DNA of 64,000 bases from positions 80,300 to 144,299 of the forward strand of contig NZ_JACNME010000007.1 of NCBI RefSeq assembly GCF_014270065.1. The letters run 5' to 3'. Position 1 is the first letter of the stretch. Each line of letters begins with the position of its first letter. Origin of the DNA: Quadrisphaera sp. RL12-1S (GTDB lineage Bacteria > Actinomycetota > Actinomycetes > Actinomycetales > Quadrisphaeraceae). Below, one piece after another: positions 1 to 22,905 of the stretch. Under the pieces are notes generated by a model. It was not told the DNA's origin. It worked only from the letters and a program-made list of their open reading frames with translations, and ran no database searches. A program made the translations under genes and the position numbers.

Positions 1-1329
1 GACCTCCTCGTCCAGGTGCTTGGGCAGCAGGTGGACGGCGGTGGAGTACTCCTCGGGCTTGGTGAACAGCTCGATCTGGGCGATCGTCTGGTCCGAGAAG
101 GAGTTCGACATGACGAACGAGGGGTGCCCGGTCGCGTTGCCGAGGTTCAGCAGGCGCCCCTCCGACAGCACGATGACCGAGTGGCCGTCGGGGAAGACCC
201 ACTCGTGGACCTGCGGCTTGATCTCCTGGCGCGTGACGCCCGGGATCCGCGCGAGGCCCGCCATGTCGATCTCGTTGTCGAAGTGGCCGACGTTGCCGAC
301 CACGGCCTTGTCGCGCAGCTTGGACAGGTGCTCGGCCGTCACCACGTCCTTGCAGCCGGTGGCCGTGATGACGAAGTGCGCCTCGTCGAGCACATCCTCC
401 AGGCGCACCACCTGGTAGCCGTCCATCGCGGCCTGCAGCGCGCAGATCGGGTCGGCCTCGGTGACGAGCACGCGGGCGCCCTGGCCGCGCAGCGACTCCG
501 CGGAGCCCTTGCCGACGTCGCCGTAGCCGCAGACCACGGCCGTCTTGCCGCCGATGAGGACGTCGGTGGCGCGGTTGATGCCGTCCACCAGCGAGTGGCG
601 CACCCCGTAGGTGTTGTCGAACTTGCTCTTGGTGACGGCGTCGTTGACGTTCATCGCCGGGAAGAGCAGGGTGCCCGCGCGCTGCATCTCGTAGAGGCGG
701 TGCACGCCGGTGGTGGTCTCCTCGGTGACGCCGCGGATGCCGGGCGCCATGCGCGTGAAGCGCGAGCCGTCGGAGGCGACGGAGCGGCGCAGCACCTCGA
801 GGATGACGCGGTACTCCTCGTTGTCGTCGTCCGTGGGCTGCGGCACGGCGCCGGCCGCCTCGAACTCGACGCCCTTGTGGACGAGGAGGGTGGCGTCTCC
901 GCCGTCGTCGAGGATCATGTTGGGGCCGTCGTGCCCCTCCCAGCGGAAGATCTCGTCGGTGCACTCCCAGTACTCCGCGAGGGTCTCGCCCTTCCAGGCG
1001 AACACCGGCACGCCCTTCGGGTCGGCGGGGGTGCCGCCGTGCTCGGGGAGGCCGACGACGACGGCCGCCGCGGCGGCGTCGTCCGTGGAGAAGATGTTGC
1101 AGCTGGCCCAGCGGACCTCGGCGCCGATCGCCACCAGGGTCTCGATGAGCACGGCCGTCTGCACGGTCATGTGGATGGATCCGGCGATGCGCGCCCCGGC
1201 CAGCGGCTTCGAGGCGGAGTAGCGCTCGCGCAGGGCCATGAGGCCCGGCATCTCGTGCTCGGCGAGGCGGATCTGGTGGCGGCCGGCCTCGGCCAGGGAG
1301 AGGTCGCGGACGCGGTGCTGCACAGTCAC
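1..1329 (-). CDS. ahcY: Adenosylhomocysteinase, C-terminus beyond window
   Basis: S-adenosylhomocysteine hydrolase splits SAH into adenosine and homocysteine in the cytosol, relieving product inhibition of methyltransferases. Reading the minus strand from the GTG at 1329 gives 443 uninterrupted codons to the window edge. The family is usually about 480 residues, so roughly the last 40 are outside. Visible hallmarks are [17 protein letters not shown] near the N-terminus, the NAD-binding loop [16 protein letters not shown], and [17 protein letters not shown] near the edge. The GTG is preceded by GGAG six bases upstream; a second in-frame GTG at 1323 is possible. The gene heads away from the divergent chemoreceptor. 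Identification is secure; only the true end is unseen. Confidence 0.96.
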
Positions 1330-1576
1330 AGGGGTCTCCAGAGGGTCGGGTGAGCGACGGTGGCCGCAGCACCTGGGGGCGGCGGCCGTGTCGATGACCT
1401 GCCGGCGCGGCCCCTCTGGGCCTCGGTCAGCACCGACGCCGGACCACTCCATGCTACGCCCGAGATCGCGGACGCGCCGAGGGTCCGACGCTCAAGGGGG
1501 CCGCAGCGGGTGCCGATCTCCGCGGTGAGGTCCACTGCCGGGCCTCTCGCAGCGACGCACGCCACCAGGGGGTCCC
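1330..1576. other. Divergent intergenic region, ahcY / chemoreceptor
   Basis: A 247-bp gap between divergent starts. It should carry promoters for both genes. A TAGCAT hexamer on the minus strand near 1452-1457 could be an ahcY -10 box, but no matching -35 is clear. I compared it with the SAH riboswitch pattern and found no convincing match. Confidence 0.4.
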
Positions 1577-3172
1577 GTGACGACCGCTCCTCCCGCCCGC
1601 CGCCTCTCCGACGCGCCGCTGGCCGTCAAGCTCGGCGCGTCCCTCGCCGTGCTCGGCCTGGTCAGCACCGGCCTGACGATCCTCGCCGTGGACCGGCTGC
1701 ACGCGCTCGAGCGGGGCCAGCAGCACCTGTACTCCGAGACCGTCGTGCCGATGAGCCGCCTCAACGACCTGCAGCGCGCCTACCAGGGCGACCGGGCCAG
1801 GTACGCCTCCTACGGCCTGCTCGACGCGGGCCGCCGCAAGGACCTCACCGCGGAGCTGGCCGAGCGCAGGACGAAGCTCGACTCCACGCTGAGCGCCTAC
1901 CAGGAGGTCGCGGACGACCCGGCGAGCGCGAAGAAGCTCGGCGACGACCTCGCCGCCTACTACGCCGTCGCCACCGGACAGCTGGTCCCCGCGGCCGACG
2001 CCGGCAGGCTCGCGGACGTCGGCACCGTGGTCACGGGCCCGCTGCAGGACGCCGTGGACGTGGTGATGGACGACATCCAGGCGGAGGCCGACGGCACCCG
2101 GGACCGCGCCGCCGCCGTGAACGCCCAGGGCGCCGCGACGGCCGCGCGCGCCGAGCTGGTCATGTGGCTCGCGCTCGTGCTCGGCGTGCTCACCGCCGGG
2201 GCGGTCGCCCTCGTCGTGGTCCGGCGGGTGCTCCGCACCGTGAGGGCCGTGCGCGCCTCGGTGGAGGCGCTGGCCTCCGGTGACCTCACCGCCGCGCCGG
2301 CCGTGACCAGCCGCGACGAGCTGGGGGCGACCGCCGAGGCGCTGGGACGGGCCATGACCTCGCTGCGCACCGTCATGGGGTCCGTGGTCAGCTCGGCGGA
2401 CGCCGTGGCCGCGGCGTCCGCCGAGCTCTCGACGACGACGACGCGGGTCGGCGCCTCGGCCGACGAGACGAGCGTCCAGTCCGGCGTGGTCAGCGGCGCC
2501 GCCACCGAGGTGGCCGGCAGCGTGCAGACCGTGGCGGCCGGTGCGGAGGAGATGGGCGCGGCCATCCGGGAGATCGCCAGGTCCACGTCCGAGGCGACGC
2601 AGGTGGCCTCGACGGCCGTGCGCGCCGCGAGCGCCGCGAACGACACGGTGCTGCGCCTGGGCGCCTCGAGCCGGGAGATCGGCGACGTCGTCAAGGTCAT
2701 CACCTCCATCGCCGAGCAGACCAACCTGCTGGCCCTCAACGCGACCATCGAGGCCGCCCGCGCCGGAGAGGCCGGCAAGGGCTTCGCGGTGGTGGCCACG
2801 GAGGTCAAGGAGCTCGCGCAGGGCACGGCCCGGGCCACGGAGGACATCGTGCGGCGGGTGGAGGCCATCCAGCAGGACTCCTCCGGCGCCGCCGAGGCGA
2901 TCGCCGGGATCGCCGGCGTCATCGAGCGGATCTCCGGCTACCAGACCGCCATCGCCTCGGCGGTCGAGGAGCAGACCGCCACCACCCAGGAGATGTCCCG
3001 GGCCGTGGCGGAGGCCGCCGGCGGCACCGACCAGATCGCCGCCAACATCGCCGGGGTCACCCGCGCGGCGTCCGCGACCAGCTCGGCGCTGGCGCACACG
3101 GGCACGGCCGTGGAGGAGCTCGCCCGGAGGGCGTCCGACCTGCGCACCGACGTGGCCGTCTTCCGCTTCTGA
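1577..3172 (+). CDS. Methyl-accepting chemotaxis protein
   Basis: Membrane chemoreceptor that would signal to a CheA/CheW complex. The 531-residue protein has a short N-terminal tail, TM1 at about 16-38, a helical periplasmic or extracellular sensor of about 150 residues, TM2 at about 193-215, a HAMP linker, and a cytoplasmic coiled-coil signalling domain. The conserved hairpin tip [20 protein letters not shown] begins near residue 378, followed by [21 protein letters not shown] stretch precedes the GTG start. The sensor is a four-helix-type domain without recognisable ligand residues, so the stimulus is unknown. No che genes are nearby, so this looks like an orphan receptor. Confidence 0.93.
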
Positions 3173-3209
3173 CAGCCCTCCCCCGTGCGGCCGCGGCCTG
3201 CGCGGCGCC

Positions 3210-4337
3210 CTACCGCAGGGCGTCGCGCAGGTCGGCCACGTGCGGGCTGGAGCCGGGGTCGGTGCCCGACCCCAGCGCCAGGTAGGTGGCGGCGAAGTCC
3301 GTGCGGGCGATGAGCAGCCCGAGCCGCTGGAGCGGCGTCTCCCCCTGCACCGACACCTGGGAGACGCGCACCCCGGCGCGCTCGGCGATGGCGACGACGG
3401 CGGAGCTGGCGGGCGCCTCCATCTCGCGCAGCAGCATGAGCCGCAGCTTGGGGCCGCCCGGGCCGTCGAGGAACGGGTCCGCGAAGACGTCGTCAGCGGT
3501 GGTGGCGAACGGGCCGCCGAAGGTGGCGACCACGTCGCCGGCGTCGTCGGGGAGGGTCCCGGCCAGCGCCGGGACGCGCGCGGAGCGGGCGAGCACGGTG
3601 GCGGCGCGGCGCGCGGCCACGGCGGACACGGGCCCGTCGCCGAGCACCACCGGCACCGAGCCGTCCAGCTCGACCGCGAGGGTCTTGGCGGGGTTGACGA
3701 AGGTGTCCGAGGACGGGCGGTCCTCGCGGGCCTCCTCGTCGAGGACGTCGGCGAGGGCCGCGAGCTCGGACGGGCCGGCGGCCAGGAGCCCCAGCCGGTC
3801 GAAGGCCAGCAGCACCGGCGTCAGCAGCGACCACAGCGCCGTGCGCGTGGTGGGCACCGCGACGGCGTCGCGCCCCGGTGAGGGGGTCTCCACGTGCAGG
3901 CCGCGCACCTGCTGGCTGACGCGGGCGAGCGCCGAGCCCTCGCGGGAGACGGTGAGCACGCGCGCCCCTCGTCGTCCTGCCTCGGCGACCACGGGGATCG
4001 CCGGGCTCTGGGACCCGGACAGCGAGACGGACACCACCATGTCCAGCGGGCCCACCCATCCGGGCAGCACGTCACCGGTGCGGGAGATCACCGGCACCGG
4101 TGACGCGGCTCCGGCGAGGGCGGTGACGGCGTCCGCCACCACCTCCGAGCCGCCGCGGGCCGCCACGAGGACGGCGCGCGGTCGGTCGGAGGGGTCGAGC
4201 CGCGCGATGCCCGACTCGAGGGCGTGGTCGGTGGCGCGGCGCACCTGCGCGCCGGCGCCGGCCAGGGCACGGAGCACGCCGAGCGGATCTCCGGCCTCGA
4301 GGCCGGCGGGGTCGTCGAGGAGGGCTTCGTCGATCAT
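3210..4337 (-). CDS. SIS-domain protein, phosphosugar isomerase-like
   Basis: A 375-residue protein with two sugar-isomerase folds in tandem, resembling the bifunctional phosphoglucose/phosphomannose isomerase family and the actinobacterial TobH-type protein. The first SIS domain includes AVLVAARGGSEVVADAV and MVVSVSLSGSQSPAIPVVAEA, the Ser-rich phosphosugar-binding loop. The second half (about 195-375) has the paired fold with ALGSGTDPGSSPHVADL at the end. It lies directly downstream of manB and the Trm112-like gene on the same strand, an arrangement conserved in actinobacteria that suggests a role in mannose-6-phosphate / GDP-mannose supply. Activity cannot be confirmed by reading; some family members may be non-catalytic. 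Confidence 0.82.
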   Translation of the reverse strand: MIDEALLDDPAGLEAGDPLGVLRALAGAGAQVRRATDHALESGIARLDPSDRPRAVLVAARGGSEVVADAVTALAGAASPVPVISRTGDVLPGWVGPLDMVVSVSLSGSQSPAIPVVAEAGRRGARVLTVSREGSALARVSQQVRGLHVETPSPGRDAVAVPTTRTALWSLLTPVLLAFDRLGLLAAGPSELAALADVLDEEAREDRPSSDTFVNPAKTLAVELDGSVPVVLGDGPVSAVAARRAATVLARSARVPALAGTLPDDAGDVVATFGGPFATTADDVFADPFLDGPGGPKLRLMLLREMEAPASSAVVAIAERAGVRVSQVSVQGETPLQRLGLLIARTDFAATYLALGSGTDPGSSPHVADLRDALR

Positions 4338-19759: not shown

Positions 19760-20410
19760 GTGAGCTCGCCCACGGACCGCGTCGACGTCGCCCGCCTCCT
19801 GGCCCGCCTGCGCGCGCAGGACTCCGGCCGCCCCCGAGTGACCTGGTACGGCGCCGACGGGGAGCGCGTGGAGCTGTCGGCGCGGGTGCTGGAGAACTGG
19901 GTGGCCAAGACCGCCAACCTCCTCGTGGAGGAGCTGGACGTCGAGACCGGGGACGGCGTGGTGCTCGCCCTGCCCGCGCACTGGCGGACGGTGGCCTGGC
20001 GGCTCGCGCTCGGCGCGGTCGGCGCCGAGCCGGTGGAGGACGACGACGACGCCCGCGTCGCGGTGGTCGCCGACGGAGCGCCCGCGCCCGCCGGTGCCGA
20101 GCACGTGGTGGTCCAGGCGCTGGGCGCGCTGGCGCTGCGCGCGACCTCCGTGCCGGCGGGGGCGCTGGACGCCGCCGCGGTGGTCGCGGGCTTCGGCGAC
20201 GCCTTCCCCTTCGTGCCCGACGCGCCGGGGCTCGTGGTCGCCACCGCGGCGGCACCGGGCGCACGGGTGCTCGTCGACGTGCGCGAGGTCGGCGACGCGG
20301 CCGCGCTCGACGCCGTGCTCGCTGCGCTGGCCGGGGGCGGCAGCGCGGTGCTGCTGGGGCCGGGCGCCCCCGACGCCGAGCGCGTCGCCGCCCAGGAGGG
20401 CACCGCCTGA
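19760..20410 (+). CDS. TIGR03089 family protein
   Basis: A 216-residue protein of an actinobacterial family related to the N-terminal part of acyl-CoA/AMP-dependent synthetases. It begins PTDRVDVARLLARLRAQDSG, then PRVTWYG and ELSARVLENWVAKTANLLVEEL, GDGVVLALPAHWRTVAW. It lacks the ATP-binding and C-terminal adenylation motifs, so enzyme activity is unlikely. Function is unknown. The GTG at 19760 is preferred over an upstream ATG-like reading because of the promoter spacing. Confidence 0.85.
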   Translation: MSSPTDRVDVARLLARLRAQDSGRPRVTWYGADGERVELSARVLENWVAKTANLLVEELDVETGDGVVLALPAHWRTVAWRLALGAVGAEPVEDDDDARVAVVADGAPAPAGAEHVVVQALGALALRATSVPAGALDAAAVVAGFGDAFPFVPDAPGLVVATAAAPGARVLVDVREVGDAAALDAVLAALAGGGSAVLLGPGAPDAERVAAQEGTA

Positions 20411-20424
20411 CCGCCCGCGCCGCC

Positions 20425-20441
20425 GCCCCGTGACGCGGGGC
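20425..20441. terminator. Short hairpin between convergent genes
   Basis: GCCCCG (20425-20430) pairs with CGGGGC (20436-20441) across a 5-base loop, in the 32-bp gap between the convergent TIGR03089 and sugE genes. The stem is short, so this is tentative. Confidence 0.4.
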
Positions 20442-20442
20442 G

Positions 20443-20757
20443 TCAGTGAGCGAGCTTGAGACCCACCACACCACCGACGATCATGGTCAGGAACACCACC
20501 TTGAGCACCGACACCGGCTCGGTGCCGGTGACCATCGCGTACGCGACCGTGAGCACGGCGCCGATGCCCACCCACACCGCGTACGAGGTGCCCACGGGCA
20601 GCTCGCGCATCGCGTAGGCGAGGCCGGCCATGCTCGCGAGGATCGCGACGGCGAACACGGCGGTGGGGCCGGGGCGGCTGAAGCCCTCCGAGCGCCCCAG
20701 GGCGGTGGCCCAGACGGCCTCCAGCACACCGGACAGGACGAGCACGAGCCAGGACAC
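20443..20757 (-). CDS. sugE: SMR-family guanidinium exporter SugE/Gdx
   Basis: A 104-residue small multidrug resistance protein with four transmembrane helices. It starts SWLVLVLSGVLEAVWATALG, with the essential Glu14-type residue in TM1 (GVLEAVWA), and ends MIVGGVVGLKLAH, typical of the SugE/Gdx branch. Gdx proteins export guanidinium in exchange for protons and usually work as antiparallel dimers. GGAGG lies six bases before the GTG at 20757. The leader carries a guanidine-III riboswitch, which is direct support for guanidinium as substrate. Confidence 0.93.
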   Translation of the reverse strand: MSWLVLVLSGVLEAVWATALGRSEGFSRPGPTAVFAVAILASMAGLAYAMRELPVGTSYAVWVGIGAVLTVAYAMVTGTEPVSVLKVVFLTMIVGGVVGLKLAH

Positions 20758-20791
20758 GACGGACCTCCACGGGTCGGGGGGGCAGGAGCAC

Positions 20792-20832
20792 GGCCGTCTT
20801 GTCGCTGTCCGGGTACGGCACCCTCGTCCGGG
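20792..20832 (-). promoter_or_regulatory. Guanidine-III (mini-ykkC-type) riboswitch aptamer
   Basis: The minus strand contains CCGGACGAGG, then GCCGTACCCGG and ACAAGACGGCC, in the same order and spacing as the guanidine-III aptamer known from Thermobifida fusca. It lies about 25 nt upstream of the sugE ribosome-binding site. Bases GCTCCTGC just after the aptamer could pair with the GGAG of that site, suggesting control of translation; that part is inference. Confidence 0.87.
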
Positions 20833-20902
20833 AGCCCGGTCAGGGGCCCGCCACCAGGGTGGCACACGGGAGCGCTCCGAGGACGGCGGTGAGCCCGTCC
20901 CC

Positions 20903-20908
20903 TAGGGT
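20903..20908 (+). promoter_or_regulatory. -10 box TAGGGT for leaderless gmd
   Basis: TAGGGT, six bases (CGGCGC), then the ATG at 20915. No Shine-Dalgarno is present. Confidence 0.6.
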
Positions 20909-20914
20909 CGGCGC

Positions 20915-21904
20915 ATGGCCAAGCGCGCGCTGATCACCGGAGTCACCGGCCAGGACGGTCTCTACCTGTCCGAGCTGCTGCTGTCCAAGGGCTACGAGGT
21001 CTACGGCCTGGTGCGCGGGCAGAACAACCCCAAGCTGCCGCTGCTGGCCCGCGAGGTGCCCGGGGTCAAGGTCCTCACCGGCGACCTCATGGACCTGTCC
21101 TCCCTGATCAGGGCCCTGAACATCGCCCAGCCCGACGAGTTCTACAACCTCGGCGCCATCTCCTTCGTGGCCTACTCCTGGGAGAACGCCGACCTCACCG
21201 CCGAGGTCACCGGCAAGGGCGTCCTCAACGCCCTGGAGGCCGTCCGCCTCTACGCCGGCGACGACGTGGACAAGGTCCGCTTCTACCAGGCCTCCTCCTC
21301 GGAGATGTTCGGCAAGGTCCAGCAGGTGCCCCAGAAGGAGGACACCCTGCTGTGGCCGCGCTCGCCCTACGGCGTGGCCAAGGTCTTCGGCCACTACATG
21401 ACCATCAACTACCGCGAGTCCTACGGCATGCACGCCTCCTCGGGGATCCTGTTCAACCACGAGAGCCCCCGCCGCGGCCCGGAGTTCGTCACCCGCAAGG
21501 TCTCCCAGGCCGTCGCCCGGATCTCCCTGGGCCTGCAGGACGAGCTGGTGCTGGGCAACCTCGACGCCCGCCGCGACTGGGGCTTCGCCGGGGACTACGT
21601 CGAGGCGATGTGGCGGATGCTGCAGCAAGACGTCGCCGACGACTACGTGGTGGCCACCGGTGAGACCCACGCCATCAGCGAGCTGCTGGACGTGGCCTTC
21701 GCCCACGTCGGCATCGACGACTGGTCCAAGGTCGTGCGCCAGGACCCGGCCTTCATGCGCCCCGCCGAGGTCGACCTGCTCATCGGTGACCCCACCAAGG
21801 CCAAGACCCAGCTCGGGTGGGAGCTCAAGGTCGGGTTCACCGAGCTGGTCCGGATGATGGTCGACGCCGACCTCGCCGAGCAGAAGGCGCTCGCCGGCAA
21901 GTGA
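20915..21904 (+). CDS. gmd: GDP-mannose 4,6-dehydratase
   Basis: Converts GDP-mannose to GDP-4-keto-6-deoxymannose, the entry to GDP-6-deoxyhexoses. The 329-residue extended SDR has TGVTGQDGLYLSELLLSKGY for NADP(H), QASSSEMFG with the catalytic Ser/Glu, YGVAK with the Tyr/Lys pair, NHESPRRGPEFVTRK and LGNLDARRDWGFAGDYVEAM, all GMD signatures. It probably makes a leaderless transcript. It overlaps by 4 bp with a second, divergent GMD copy. No reductase for the 4-keto product is adjacent, so the final sugar is unknown. Confidence 0.94.
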   Translation: MAKRALITGVTGQDGLYLSELLLSKGYEVYGLVRGQNNPKLPLLAREVPGVKVLTGDLMDLSSLIRALNIAQPDEFYNLGAISFVAYSWENADLTAEVTGKGVLNALEAVRLYAGDDVDKVRFYQASSSEMFGKVQQVPQKEDTLLWPRSPYGVAKVFGHYMTINYRESYGMHASSGILFNHESPRRGPEFVTRKVSQAVARISLGLQDELVLGNLDARRDWGFAGDYVEAMWRMLQQDVADDYVVATGETHAISELLDVAFAHVGIDDWSKVVRQDPAFMRPAEVDLLIGDPTKAKTQLGWELKVGFTELVRMMVDADLAEQKALAGK

Positions 21905-22905
21905 CGCAGCAGCAGAGCGCGCCCCCGGGCGCCACCCGCCGGGTGGCGCTGGTCACCGGCGTGACCGGGCAGGACGGCGGCTACCTCGCCGAACTGCTCG
22001 CCGCCGAGGGCACCCTCGTGCACGGCGTGCGCCGCGGCGCGGGGCCGCTGCCGGCGCACCTGGAGGCCCTGGGCGACCGGCTCGTCGTCCACACCGCGGA
22101 CCTGCTCGACCCCGGCGCGGCCGCGGCGCTGGTGCGGGAGGTCCGGCCCGACGAGGTCTACAACCTCGCCGCCGAGAGCTCCGTGGCCCGCTCGTGGGAG
22201 GAGCCGGTGGAGACCGCGCTGCTCGACGCGGTGCTGCCCGCCGCGATCCTGCACGCCGCGGCGAGCACCACCGCCACCGGCGGCGGCCCGGTGCGGGTGC
22301 TGCAGGCCTCCAGCGCCGAGGTCTTCGCCGGCGCCGGCGTGACCCCGCAGGACGAGTCGACGCCCGTCGTCCCCGTGACCCCGTACGGGGCCGCGAAGGC
22401 CTACGCCCACCACCTCGTGCAGCTGCACCGCGCCGGCGGCGCGTTCGCGGTGAACGCGGTGCTCTACCCGCACGAGTCGCCCCGCCGCCCGGCGCGCTTC
22501 GTCACCCGCAAGATCACCTCGACGGTCGCGGCGATCGCCCGCGGCCGCGCCGACGAGCTGGTGCTCGGCAACACCGCCGCCCGCCGCGACTGGGGCTGGG
22601 CGCCGGACACGGTCCGCGCCATGGTCGCGGCGCTGCGCCACGACGAGCCGCTGGACGTGGTGGTGGCCACCGGCACGTCCCACTCGGTGGAGGACTTCGT
22701 CGCCGCGGCGTTCACCCGCGCCGGGGTGGCGCAGTGGCGCCACCTCGTGCGCACCGACCCGGCCTTCGTGCGCCCCAACGACGCCGCCGACCTCGTGGGG
22801 GACCCGCGGCTCGCCCGCGAGGTGCTCGGCTGGGCGCCCACGCGCTCGTTCGCTGACGTGGTCGGCGCCATGGTCGACGCCGACCTCGCCGCGCTCGACG
22901 CCTGA
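21901..22905 (+). CDS. Second GDP-mannose 4,6-dehydratase-like protein
   Basis: A 334-residue paralogue of the gene just upstream, starting at a GTG that overlaps its stop (GTGA). It keeps TGVTGQDGGYLAELLAAEG, QASSAEVFAG, TPYGAAKAYAHH, PHESPRRPARFVTRKIT and LGNTAARRDWGWAPDTVRAM, so the catalytic Ser/Glu-Tyr-Lys set looks intact. The middle is more Ala-rich and diverged. It may be a second dehydratase, a partner subunit, or an enzyme acting on another NDP-sugar. A GDP-rhamnose reductase (RMD) is less likely because the GMD-only motifs are present. Confidence 0.85.
   Translation: MTQQQSAPPGATRRVALVTGVTGQDGGYLAELLAAEGTLVHGVRRGAGPLPAHLEALGDRLVVHTADLLDPGAAAALVREVRPDEVYNLAAESSVARSWEEPVETALLDAVLPAAILHAAASTTATGGGPVRVLQASSAEVFAGAGVTPQDESTPVVPVTPYGAAKAYAHHLVQLHRAGGAFAVNAVLYPHESPRRPARFVTRKITSTVAAIARGRADELVLGNTAARRDWGWAPDTVRAMVAALRHDEPLDVVVATGTSHSVEDFVAAAFTRAGVAQWRHLVRTDPAFVRPNDAADLVGDPRLAREVLGWAPTRSFADVVGAMVDADLAALDA

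Follow-up and report, generated by a model that had tools for sequence, protein, structure and literature searches.

A guanidine-III riboswitch ahead of a Gdx-type exporter gene in Quadrisphaera, and a candidate competing strand in its leader

The 64-kb stretch of Quadrisphaera sp. RL12-1S DNA analysed in this study (the window) contains an RNA that is almost certainly a member of the guanidine-III class. Together with the sugE gene on the same strand, whose GTG start lies 29 nt downstream of the aptamer end, it is an ordinary example of a known riboswitch class ahead of its usual gene. Comparison of related leaders suggests that the switching sequence is the 3' strand of the P2 helix, GACGGCC, and not GCTCCTGC, which an earlier note on this DNA had put forward as an anti-Shine-Dalgarno. 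The class itself had been read by that note from the letters, and a covariance search bears it out: the Guanidine-III model (ykkC-III, RF01763) matches positions 20787-20852 of the minus strand over its full length (model positions 1-67 of 67) with 54.8 bits (the cut-off being 36) and an E-value of 1.3e-8, and the match is hence far beyond chance. This was the sole match over the gathering score when the whole window was compared with 4227 Rfam families, and a search of the window's own genome returned no second guanidine-III match.

The ordered core that had been recognized by eye is exact in all three of its strings, CCGGACGAGG (20831-20822), GCCGTACCCGG (20819-20809) and ACAAGACGGCC (20802-20792), all on the minus strand. 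The interval given for it, 20443-20832, does hold both the RNA and the gene, but it omits the 5' hairpin of the Rfam model, in which GGGCCC (20849-20844) pairs with GGGCTC (20837-20832) on the minus strand according to the model alignment and the letters; the extent of the RNA is therefore corrected to 20852. The remainder of the minus-strand aptamer is composed of two helices. In P1, the 5' strand CCGG (20828-20831), positioned as in the crystal structure (PMC5696562, cited, like all papers here, from selected passages), pairs with the 3' strand CCGG (20809-20812), while in P2 the 5' strand GCCGT (20815-20819) pairs with 20797-20793. The latter positions lie within GACGGCC (20792-20798), which is at once the P2 3' strand and the proposed competitor strand that emerged from an offset scan of duplex energies. 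By alignment to the structure described in PMC5696562, the ligand-contact nucleotides C6 and G7 correspond to 20826 and 20825, and G17, the second guanine that binds guanidinium, to 20816; all three are present in the window aptamer.

The gene that follows, sugE/gdx, occupies 20443-20757 on the minus strand (GTG start at 20757, stop codon included at 20443) and encodes a 104-aa protein of the SMR family (PF00893, 76.8 bits). Its closest PDB match is Gdx-Clo (6wk5; E 1.4e-21 over 101 residues), as compared to an E-value of 1.1e-6 for the best EmrE entry. Furthermore, the product shares with Gdx-Clo, under the same numbers, all five of the binding-site residues named for that protein in PMC9574504 (E13, W16, S42, Y59 and W62), and likewise the GXG of TM3. 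It differs from the Gdx (SugE) subtype in one respect: the NCBIfam SugE equivalog (NF008512), although the best of its library, scores 95.5 bits and thus less than its cut-off of 126, and the protein is therefore filed under the Gdx subtype, on the basis of residues and nearest structure, rather than as a SugE equivalog. The sugE product is, from these sequence comparisons, a probable guanidinium exporter of the Gdx type, in agreement with the earlier reading of the downstream gene. That RNA and transporter each point to guanidinium, as had also been argued, is supported by tests that are independent of each other, namely the covariance score, the Gdx residues and structure, and the co-occurrence of the two elements among relatives.

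Within the genus, the RNA and the orthologous exporter gene stand side by side in four of six genomes, and neither was matched in the other two. The aptamer is thus present in all four of the genus genomes that carry sugE (that of the window included), and the loss of its pairing from relatives keeping the gene, by which the assignment was to be judged, was not seen. At E-values up to 0.001 the RNA was found in 6 of 13 genomes of the family and in 72 of 149 of the order, 67 of the latter being over the cut-off; 72 of the 74 order matches were read as loci, the remaining two lying below the cut-off. Among 14 control genomes a match was returned for one, Deinobacterium chartae. The RNA precedes an SMR gene in 65 of the 67 above-cut-off cases of the order. 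Since 100 of the 149 order genomes gave an SMR match with an E-value of 0.001 or below, compared to 72 for the RNA, not every SMR gene has the RNA. Tandem SMR pairs directly after a guanidine-III RNA were observed in at least three genomes of other genera (G010:C17, G018:C17 and G068:C1). Genome G003 has a separate SMR pair (G003:C115:28119-28741; L037 and L038) away from its one guanidine-III match, and in one copy of this pair a TAG was counted within the matched stretch.

The H-type pseudoknot formed by P1 and P2 covaries among these relatives. Across 108 distinct aptamers (leader L070 was unparsed), the four pairs of P1 are kept in 106, 107, 107 and 108, with double changes that yield GCGG/CCGC, TCGG/CCGA and CCTG/CAGG, while the five pairs of P2 are kept in 104, 105, 108, 108 and 108, with several compensatory types. 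A non-functional relic or a chance match would have to account for this covariation, for a full-length match at 54.8 bits and for a position beside an orthologous gene in four genus genomes, and is scarcely credible. The identification of the class stands, therefore, because the covariance score passes, the aptamer is kept with sugE, the helices covary and C6, G7 and G17 are present.

When set against the known class, represented by the Thermobifida fusca structure 5NWQ, the window RNA has the same complete Rfam model, the same P1 and P2 and, by alignment, the same C6, G7 and G17. Its position upstream of an SMR gene is likewise that described for the class, in PMC2864571 with regard to the emrE family and in PMC12186494 with regard to efflux proteins. 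The difference lies in the spacing. In the window, the Shine-Dalgarno GGAGG (20764-20768, minus strand; 6 nt ahead of the GTG start) is located 23 nt after P2, in contrast to 1-7 nt in 58 of 61 leaders outside the genus (the exceptions being L068, L070 and L071). Similarly, 59 of 72 loci have their start codon 8-16 nt past the end of the aptamer, as compared to 19-30 nt in the four genus leaders as well as in L070 and L071. The leader set used for such comparisons comprises 66 of the 72 loci, as L065, L067, L075, L076 and L079 were without a start call and the distance in L077 exceeds 32 nt. Long spacers are known from the class, given that 16 nt separate the aptamer 3' end from the ribosome binding site in T. 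fusca (PMC5696562).

The mechanism of class III is described as less well established, with its nearness to the ribosome binding site suggesting translational ON control (PMC5696562, 2017), and the relevant passage of PMC12186494 likewise suggests exposure of the ribosome binding site for guanidine-III. Translational control, which the earlier note had proposed for sugE, is plausible here, as a scan of 20400-21000 returned no terminator-like site and the Shine-Dalgarno is located downstream of the aptamer; for the particular masking element that the note named, the support is only partial. Transcription termination, whether intrinsic or Rho-dependent, is the manner in which the guanidine-I and -IV riboswitches act (PMC12186494), and Rho would be compatible with the sequence; yet with the 20400-21000 interval free of terminator-like sites and a Shine-Dalgarno 23 nt after P2, we regard termination as very improbable for this leader. 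The sole site that a promoter scan returned lies on the plus strand, inside the gene, and was rejected as a sugE promoter.

The proposed anti-Shine-Dalgarno, GCTCCTGC (20782-20789, minus strand), would pair with GGAGG in the OFF state. The sequence is indeed present, and when the 3' segment is folded in isolation, its CTCC (20785-20788) pairs with GGAG in the minimum-energy structure, both for the window leader and for L003. CTCC is found at this place in three of the four genus leaders; however, it is missing from L004, and most of the order lacks the space for such an element, the start codon following the aptamer end so closely in 59 of 72 loci. Moreover, GCTCCTGC overlaps neither P1 nor P2. 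Being located outside the pseudoknot, it has no tie to the ligand, and its pairing with GGAGG alone would therefore not respond to guanidinium. That GCTCCTGC acts on its own as the anti-Shine-Dalgarno is, hence, quite unlikely. In the predicted fold of the isolated 3' segment, CTCC/GGAG makes up the inner part of a hairpin of which the outer part is formed with the P2 3' strand, and it is to this latter strand that we turn as the favoured candidate.

The proposed partner of GACGGCC is GGTCCGTC (20758-20765, minus strand), with which it would form a duplex of -12.2 kcal/mol with one bulged T. For the window leader, the fold predicted for the isolated segment unites the five outer pairs of this helix with CTCC/GGAG in a single hairpin. 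In the offset scan, 9-mers taken at 31 offsets in the aptamer were scored for pairing with the region that runs from the Shine-Dalgarno to the start codon, in cognate and in permuted leaders (134 leaders, 125 of them distinct; L070 and L146 were skipped, and the permuted mean at the last offset, +8, is meaningless). Of the 31 offsets, that of the P2 3' strand has both the lowest mean duplex energy and the largest cognate excess (z -4.6), while the P2 5' strand has the opposite sign (z +2.2 and +3.1). Paired with the Shine-Dalgarno-to-start stretch of the 125 distinct leaders, the P2 3' strand reaches a cognate mean of -8.08 kcal/mol versus a permuted mean of -7.33 kcal/mol (z -4.7). The excess is also seen in a subset of 73 leaders whose P2 types are less common (z -3.9) and upon thinning of the set at 85% likeness (102 leaders, z -4.6) and at 75% likeness (47 leaders, z -2.6, p 0.0066), relatedness being reduced rather than fully removed in these permutation tests. 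The 80 named loci of the comparison include 70 that matched a strict core pattern, nine that did not (several of which show an aptamer with other letters when inspected by eye) and one that was passed over as it had no start codon; the two leader sets overlap in a few organisms, and only identical segments were merged.

A further indication comes from the letters directly ahead of the start codon. There, GTC occurs in 67 of the 125 distinct leaders versus three of 86 starts of flanking genes, the latter being crude ORF calls for which a Shine-Dalgarno match of at least five bases was required. After thinning, GTC is found in 49 of 102 leaders (85%) and 19 of 47 (75%). This trinucleotide is the complement of GAC, the first three letters of the P2 3' strand.

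A number of observations argue against the competing helix. In-line probing by Sherlock and colleagues, as reported in the cited part of PMC5696562, has P1 and P2 paired without guanidine, with only the third strand moving, which, for the probed construct at least, is at odds with the P2 3' strand being set free. When the window leader was folded together with 40 nt of coding sequence, the probability of the competing helix was at most 0.008. Furthermore, shuffled versions of the isolated window segment are more stable than the segment itself (z +2.6); the z-scores of ten single segments range from -3.1 (L144) to this value and provide no general support. Among the isolated segments of the genus, those of L001 and L003 form the helix, and in those of L002 and L004 the strand is paired to the linker instead. 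The signal is also weak per leader: the cognate pairing beats the mean of the leader's own swaps in 75 of 125 cases, 39% of swaps are as good in the median leader, and in many single leaders the P2 3' strand pairs poorly with the start region. Finally, the 3' arm of the 5' hairpin shows a second excess (z -2.1 to -3.3 at three offsets), which is weaker than that of P2 and which gives p-values of 0.018 and 0.030 after thinning.

Calculations of occlusion in 65 leaders (the set of 66 minus L017) had a mixed outcome and are not counted as support. With the aptamer engaged, the cost of opening the Shine-Dalgarno is lower in 36 and higher in 24 of them, with the mean falling from 4.9 to 3.9 kcal/mol, while the mean unpaired probability changes from 0.52 to 0.43, contrary to an occlusion model. 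These mixed thermodynamics lend some weight to a reading in which mRNA stability is the main effect, the ligand-bound pseudoknot blocking RNase E scanning and the masking of the Shine-Dalgarno being secondary; indeed, a shielding of mRNA from RNase E scanning by guanidine-III is stated in PMC12186494, which cites Richards and Belasco (2021) for it. As such a reading leaves unexplained both the frequent GTC before the start and the surplus of pairing to the P2 strand, we consider it unlikely as the main effect.

The explanation that we prefer, translational control through the P2 3' strand, would operate as follows. Rising guanidinium would be bound at G7, G17 and C6 and would stabilise the H-type pseudoknot, in which P2 makes use of the strand ACGGC. 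Without ligand, GACGGCC would pair with GGTCCGTC between the Shine-Dalgarno and the start codon, assisted in this genus by the CTCC/GGAG pairing, and ribosomes would be kept off. Because the P2 strand cannot sit in P2 and in the competing hairpin together, ligand binding could free the start region. We infer the ligand and the direction of switching by analogy with the known class, and consider ON control by guanidinium very likely. That the switch acts mainly at translation is, in our estimation, probable, while the helix between GACGGCC and GGTCCGTC is put forward tentatively, as a candidate from the comparison of leaders that may or may not form. In the same tentative spirit, actinobacterial guanidine-III leaders may share a design in which the P2 3' strand doubles as an anti-start strand, with a partner that often has GTC, and in which this genus would have lengthened the spacer, in some members adding the CTCC/GGAG pairing; we see this generalization as somewhat doubtful. 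The passages of the literature on the class that are cited here do not name an anti-start role of the P2 3' strand.

The two above-cut-off hits of the order that are not ahead of an SMR gene, L065 and L067, both have A10 in the third strand and A38 in P2, where the triple of the crystal structure is C15-G38 G10 (PMC5696562). A search of 394 genomes of the taxonomic class with the L065/L067 core, allowing at most one mismatch, returned 28 matches, among which are 14 more A10/A38 leaders (L183, L184, L186, L187, L189, L199-L206 and L210), A10 being itself selected for by the pattern search. The genes following these 14 encode ten SMR proteins with M16 and not W16, two isochorismatase-like hydrolases, one CBU_0592 membrane protein and one Ohr-type protein. 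Family models were passed for the non-SMR products of L183, L186 and L187, while the L184 product and the small membrane proteins encoded after the L065 and L067 RNAs were named by likeness (CBU_0592-like for the membrane proteins), a Pfam search of the latter two having returned nothing. All ten of the subgroup loci that were given to Rfam, out of the 14, pass RF01763 (41.1-57.9 bits). The Gdx-selected set also holds an A10/A38 leader, L086, as well as A10 together with a T-A pair in L107 and L117, so that these letters do not sort perfectly by gene. In this reading of positions 10 and 38 and of residue 16, L052 and L129 were unparsed and L029, possibly with others, was misparsed, and residue 16 was read in 45 leaders only, the label other/short given to the remaining ones carrying no information on it. 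A10/A38 possibly represents a changed base triple beside the binding site, which may reflect a change of ligand or of structure only. A literature search combining guanidine riboswitch variants with isochorismatase found no paper.

On the chromosome, the aptamer is flanked by a divergent GDP-mannose 4,6-dehydratase-like (gmd-like) gene (20915-21904, plus strand; PF16363, 402 bits), which lies 62 nt from the aptamer 5' end and of which orthologs with 93-96% identity are present in the five other genus genomes searched. Two such genes stand in tandem in the window (20915-22905), the second match being 44-45% identical to the first, and this arrangement is seen in six of six genus genomes. In three leaders (L001-L003) TAGGGT is located 6-7 nt ahead of the gmd-like ATG. 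Given this distance and an aptamer only 62 nt away, the gmd-like mRNA may be leaderless, with its promoter and that of sugE nearly back to back around 20850-20925 of the window.

RNA and sugE fill the slot at 20411-20914, with the gmd-like gene on one side and a TIGR03089 gene on the other, and the locus L173 from genome G002 has the gene order of the window. In the sister genome G001, which is without both sugE and guanidine-III RNA, the gap between the same two flanking genes amounts to about 8.9 kb. Within this gap, L171 (G001:C15:86500-92500) contains a ureohydrolase of the GdmH guanidinase type according to PDB matches (560-1825, minus strand), a guanidine-I-like RNA (2059-2194, plus strand; 59.9 bits, below the cut-off of 63) and an APC permease (about 2249-3847, plus strand; TIGR03428 670 bits with a cut-off of 740, and PF13520). 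The gap also contains a DUF294 protein and a GntR-type regulator and, judged by reading alone, a second permease together with two ORFs that resemble carbon-nitrogen hydrolases. The ureohydrolase scores 524 bits to 9fek, which we take to be the N. inopinata guanidinase, and 488 to 7esr/7oi1, presumably Synechocystis GdmH, whereas the next-best ureohydrolase reaches 158. By a manual count on the alignment, for which a numbering offset of two was assumed, it keeps the threonine and tryptophan given as guanidinase specificity residues in PMC11410670. The slot of G001 thus holds a set like that of guanidine-I riboswitch, guanidinase and APC permease described for the Nitrospira inopinata type (PMC11410670); this set, with its other riboswitch class and other strategy, is absent from the window.

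A third occupant of the slot, L172 (G005:C119:3000-8000), consists of an aminotransferase-like gene and an MFS transporter, and at E-values up to 0.01 it matched no RNA family. The slot appears to be one that genes enter and leave. Guanidinase matches at E up to 1e-60 were obtained for two of the 149 order genomes, neither of which has a guanidine-III or an SMR match; with so few cases, the notion that a genome with a guanidinase does without the exporter was dropped.

With the window, a large known set of guanidine-III/Gdx pairs gains one more member that is well supported. Among closely related genomes, export and breakdown of guanidine share one chromosomal slot, which, with a single case of breakdown, is to be taken as an observation and not as a rule. 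For a riboswitch class whose mechanism was described in 2017 as less well established (PMC5696562), the comparison of leaders offers a candidate competing strand that can be tested.
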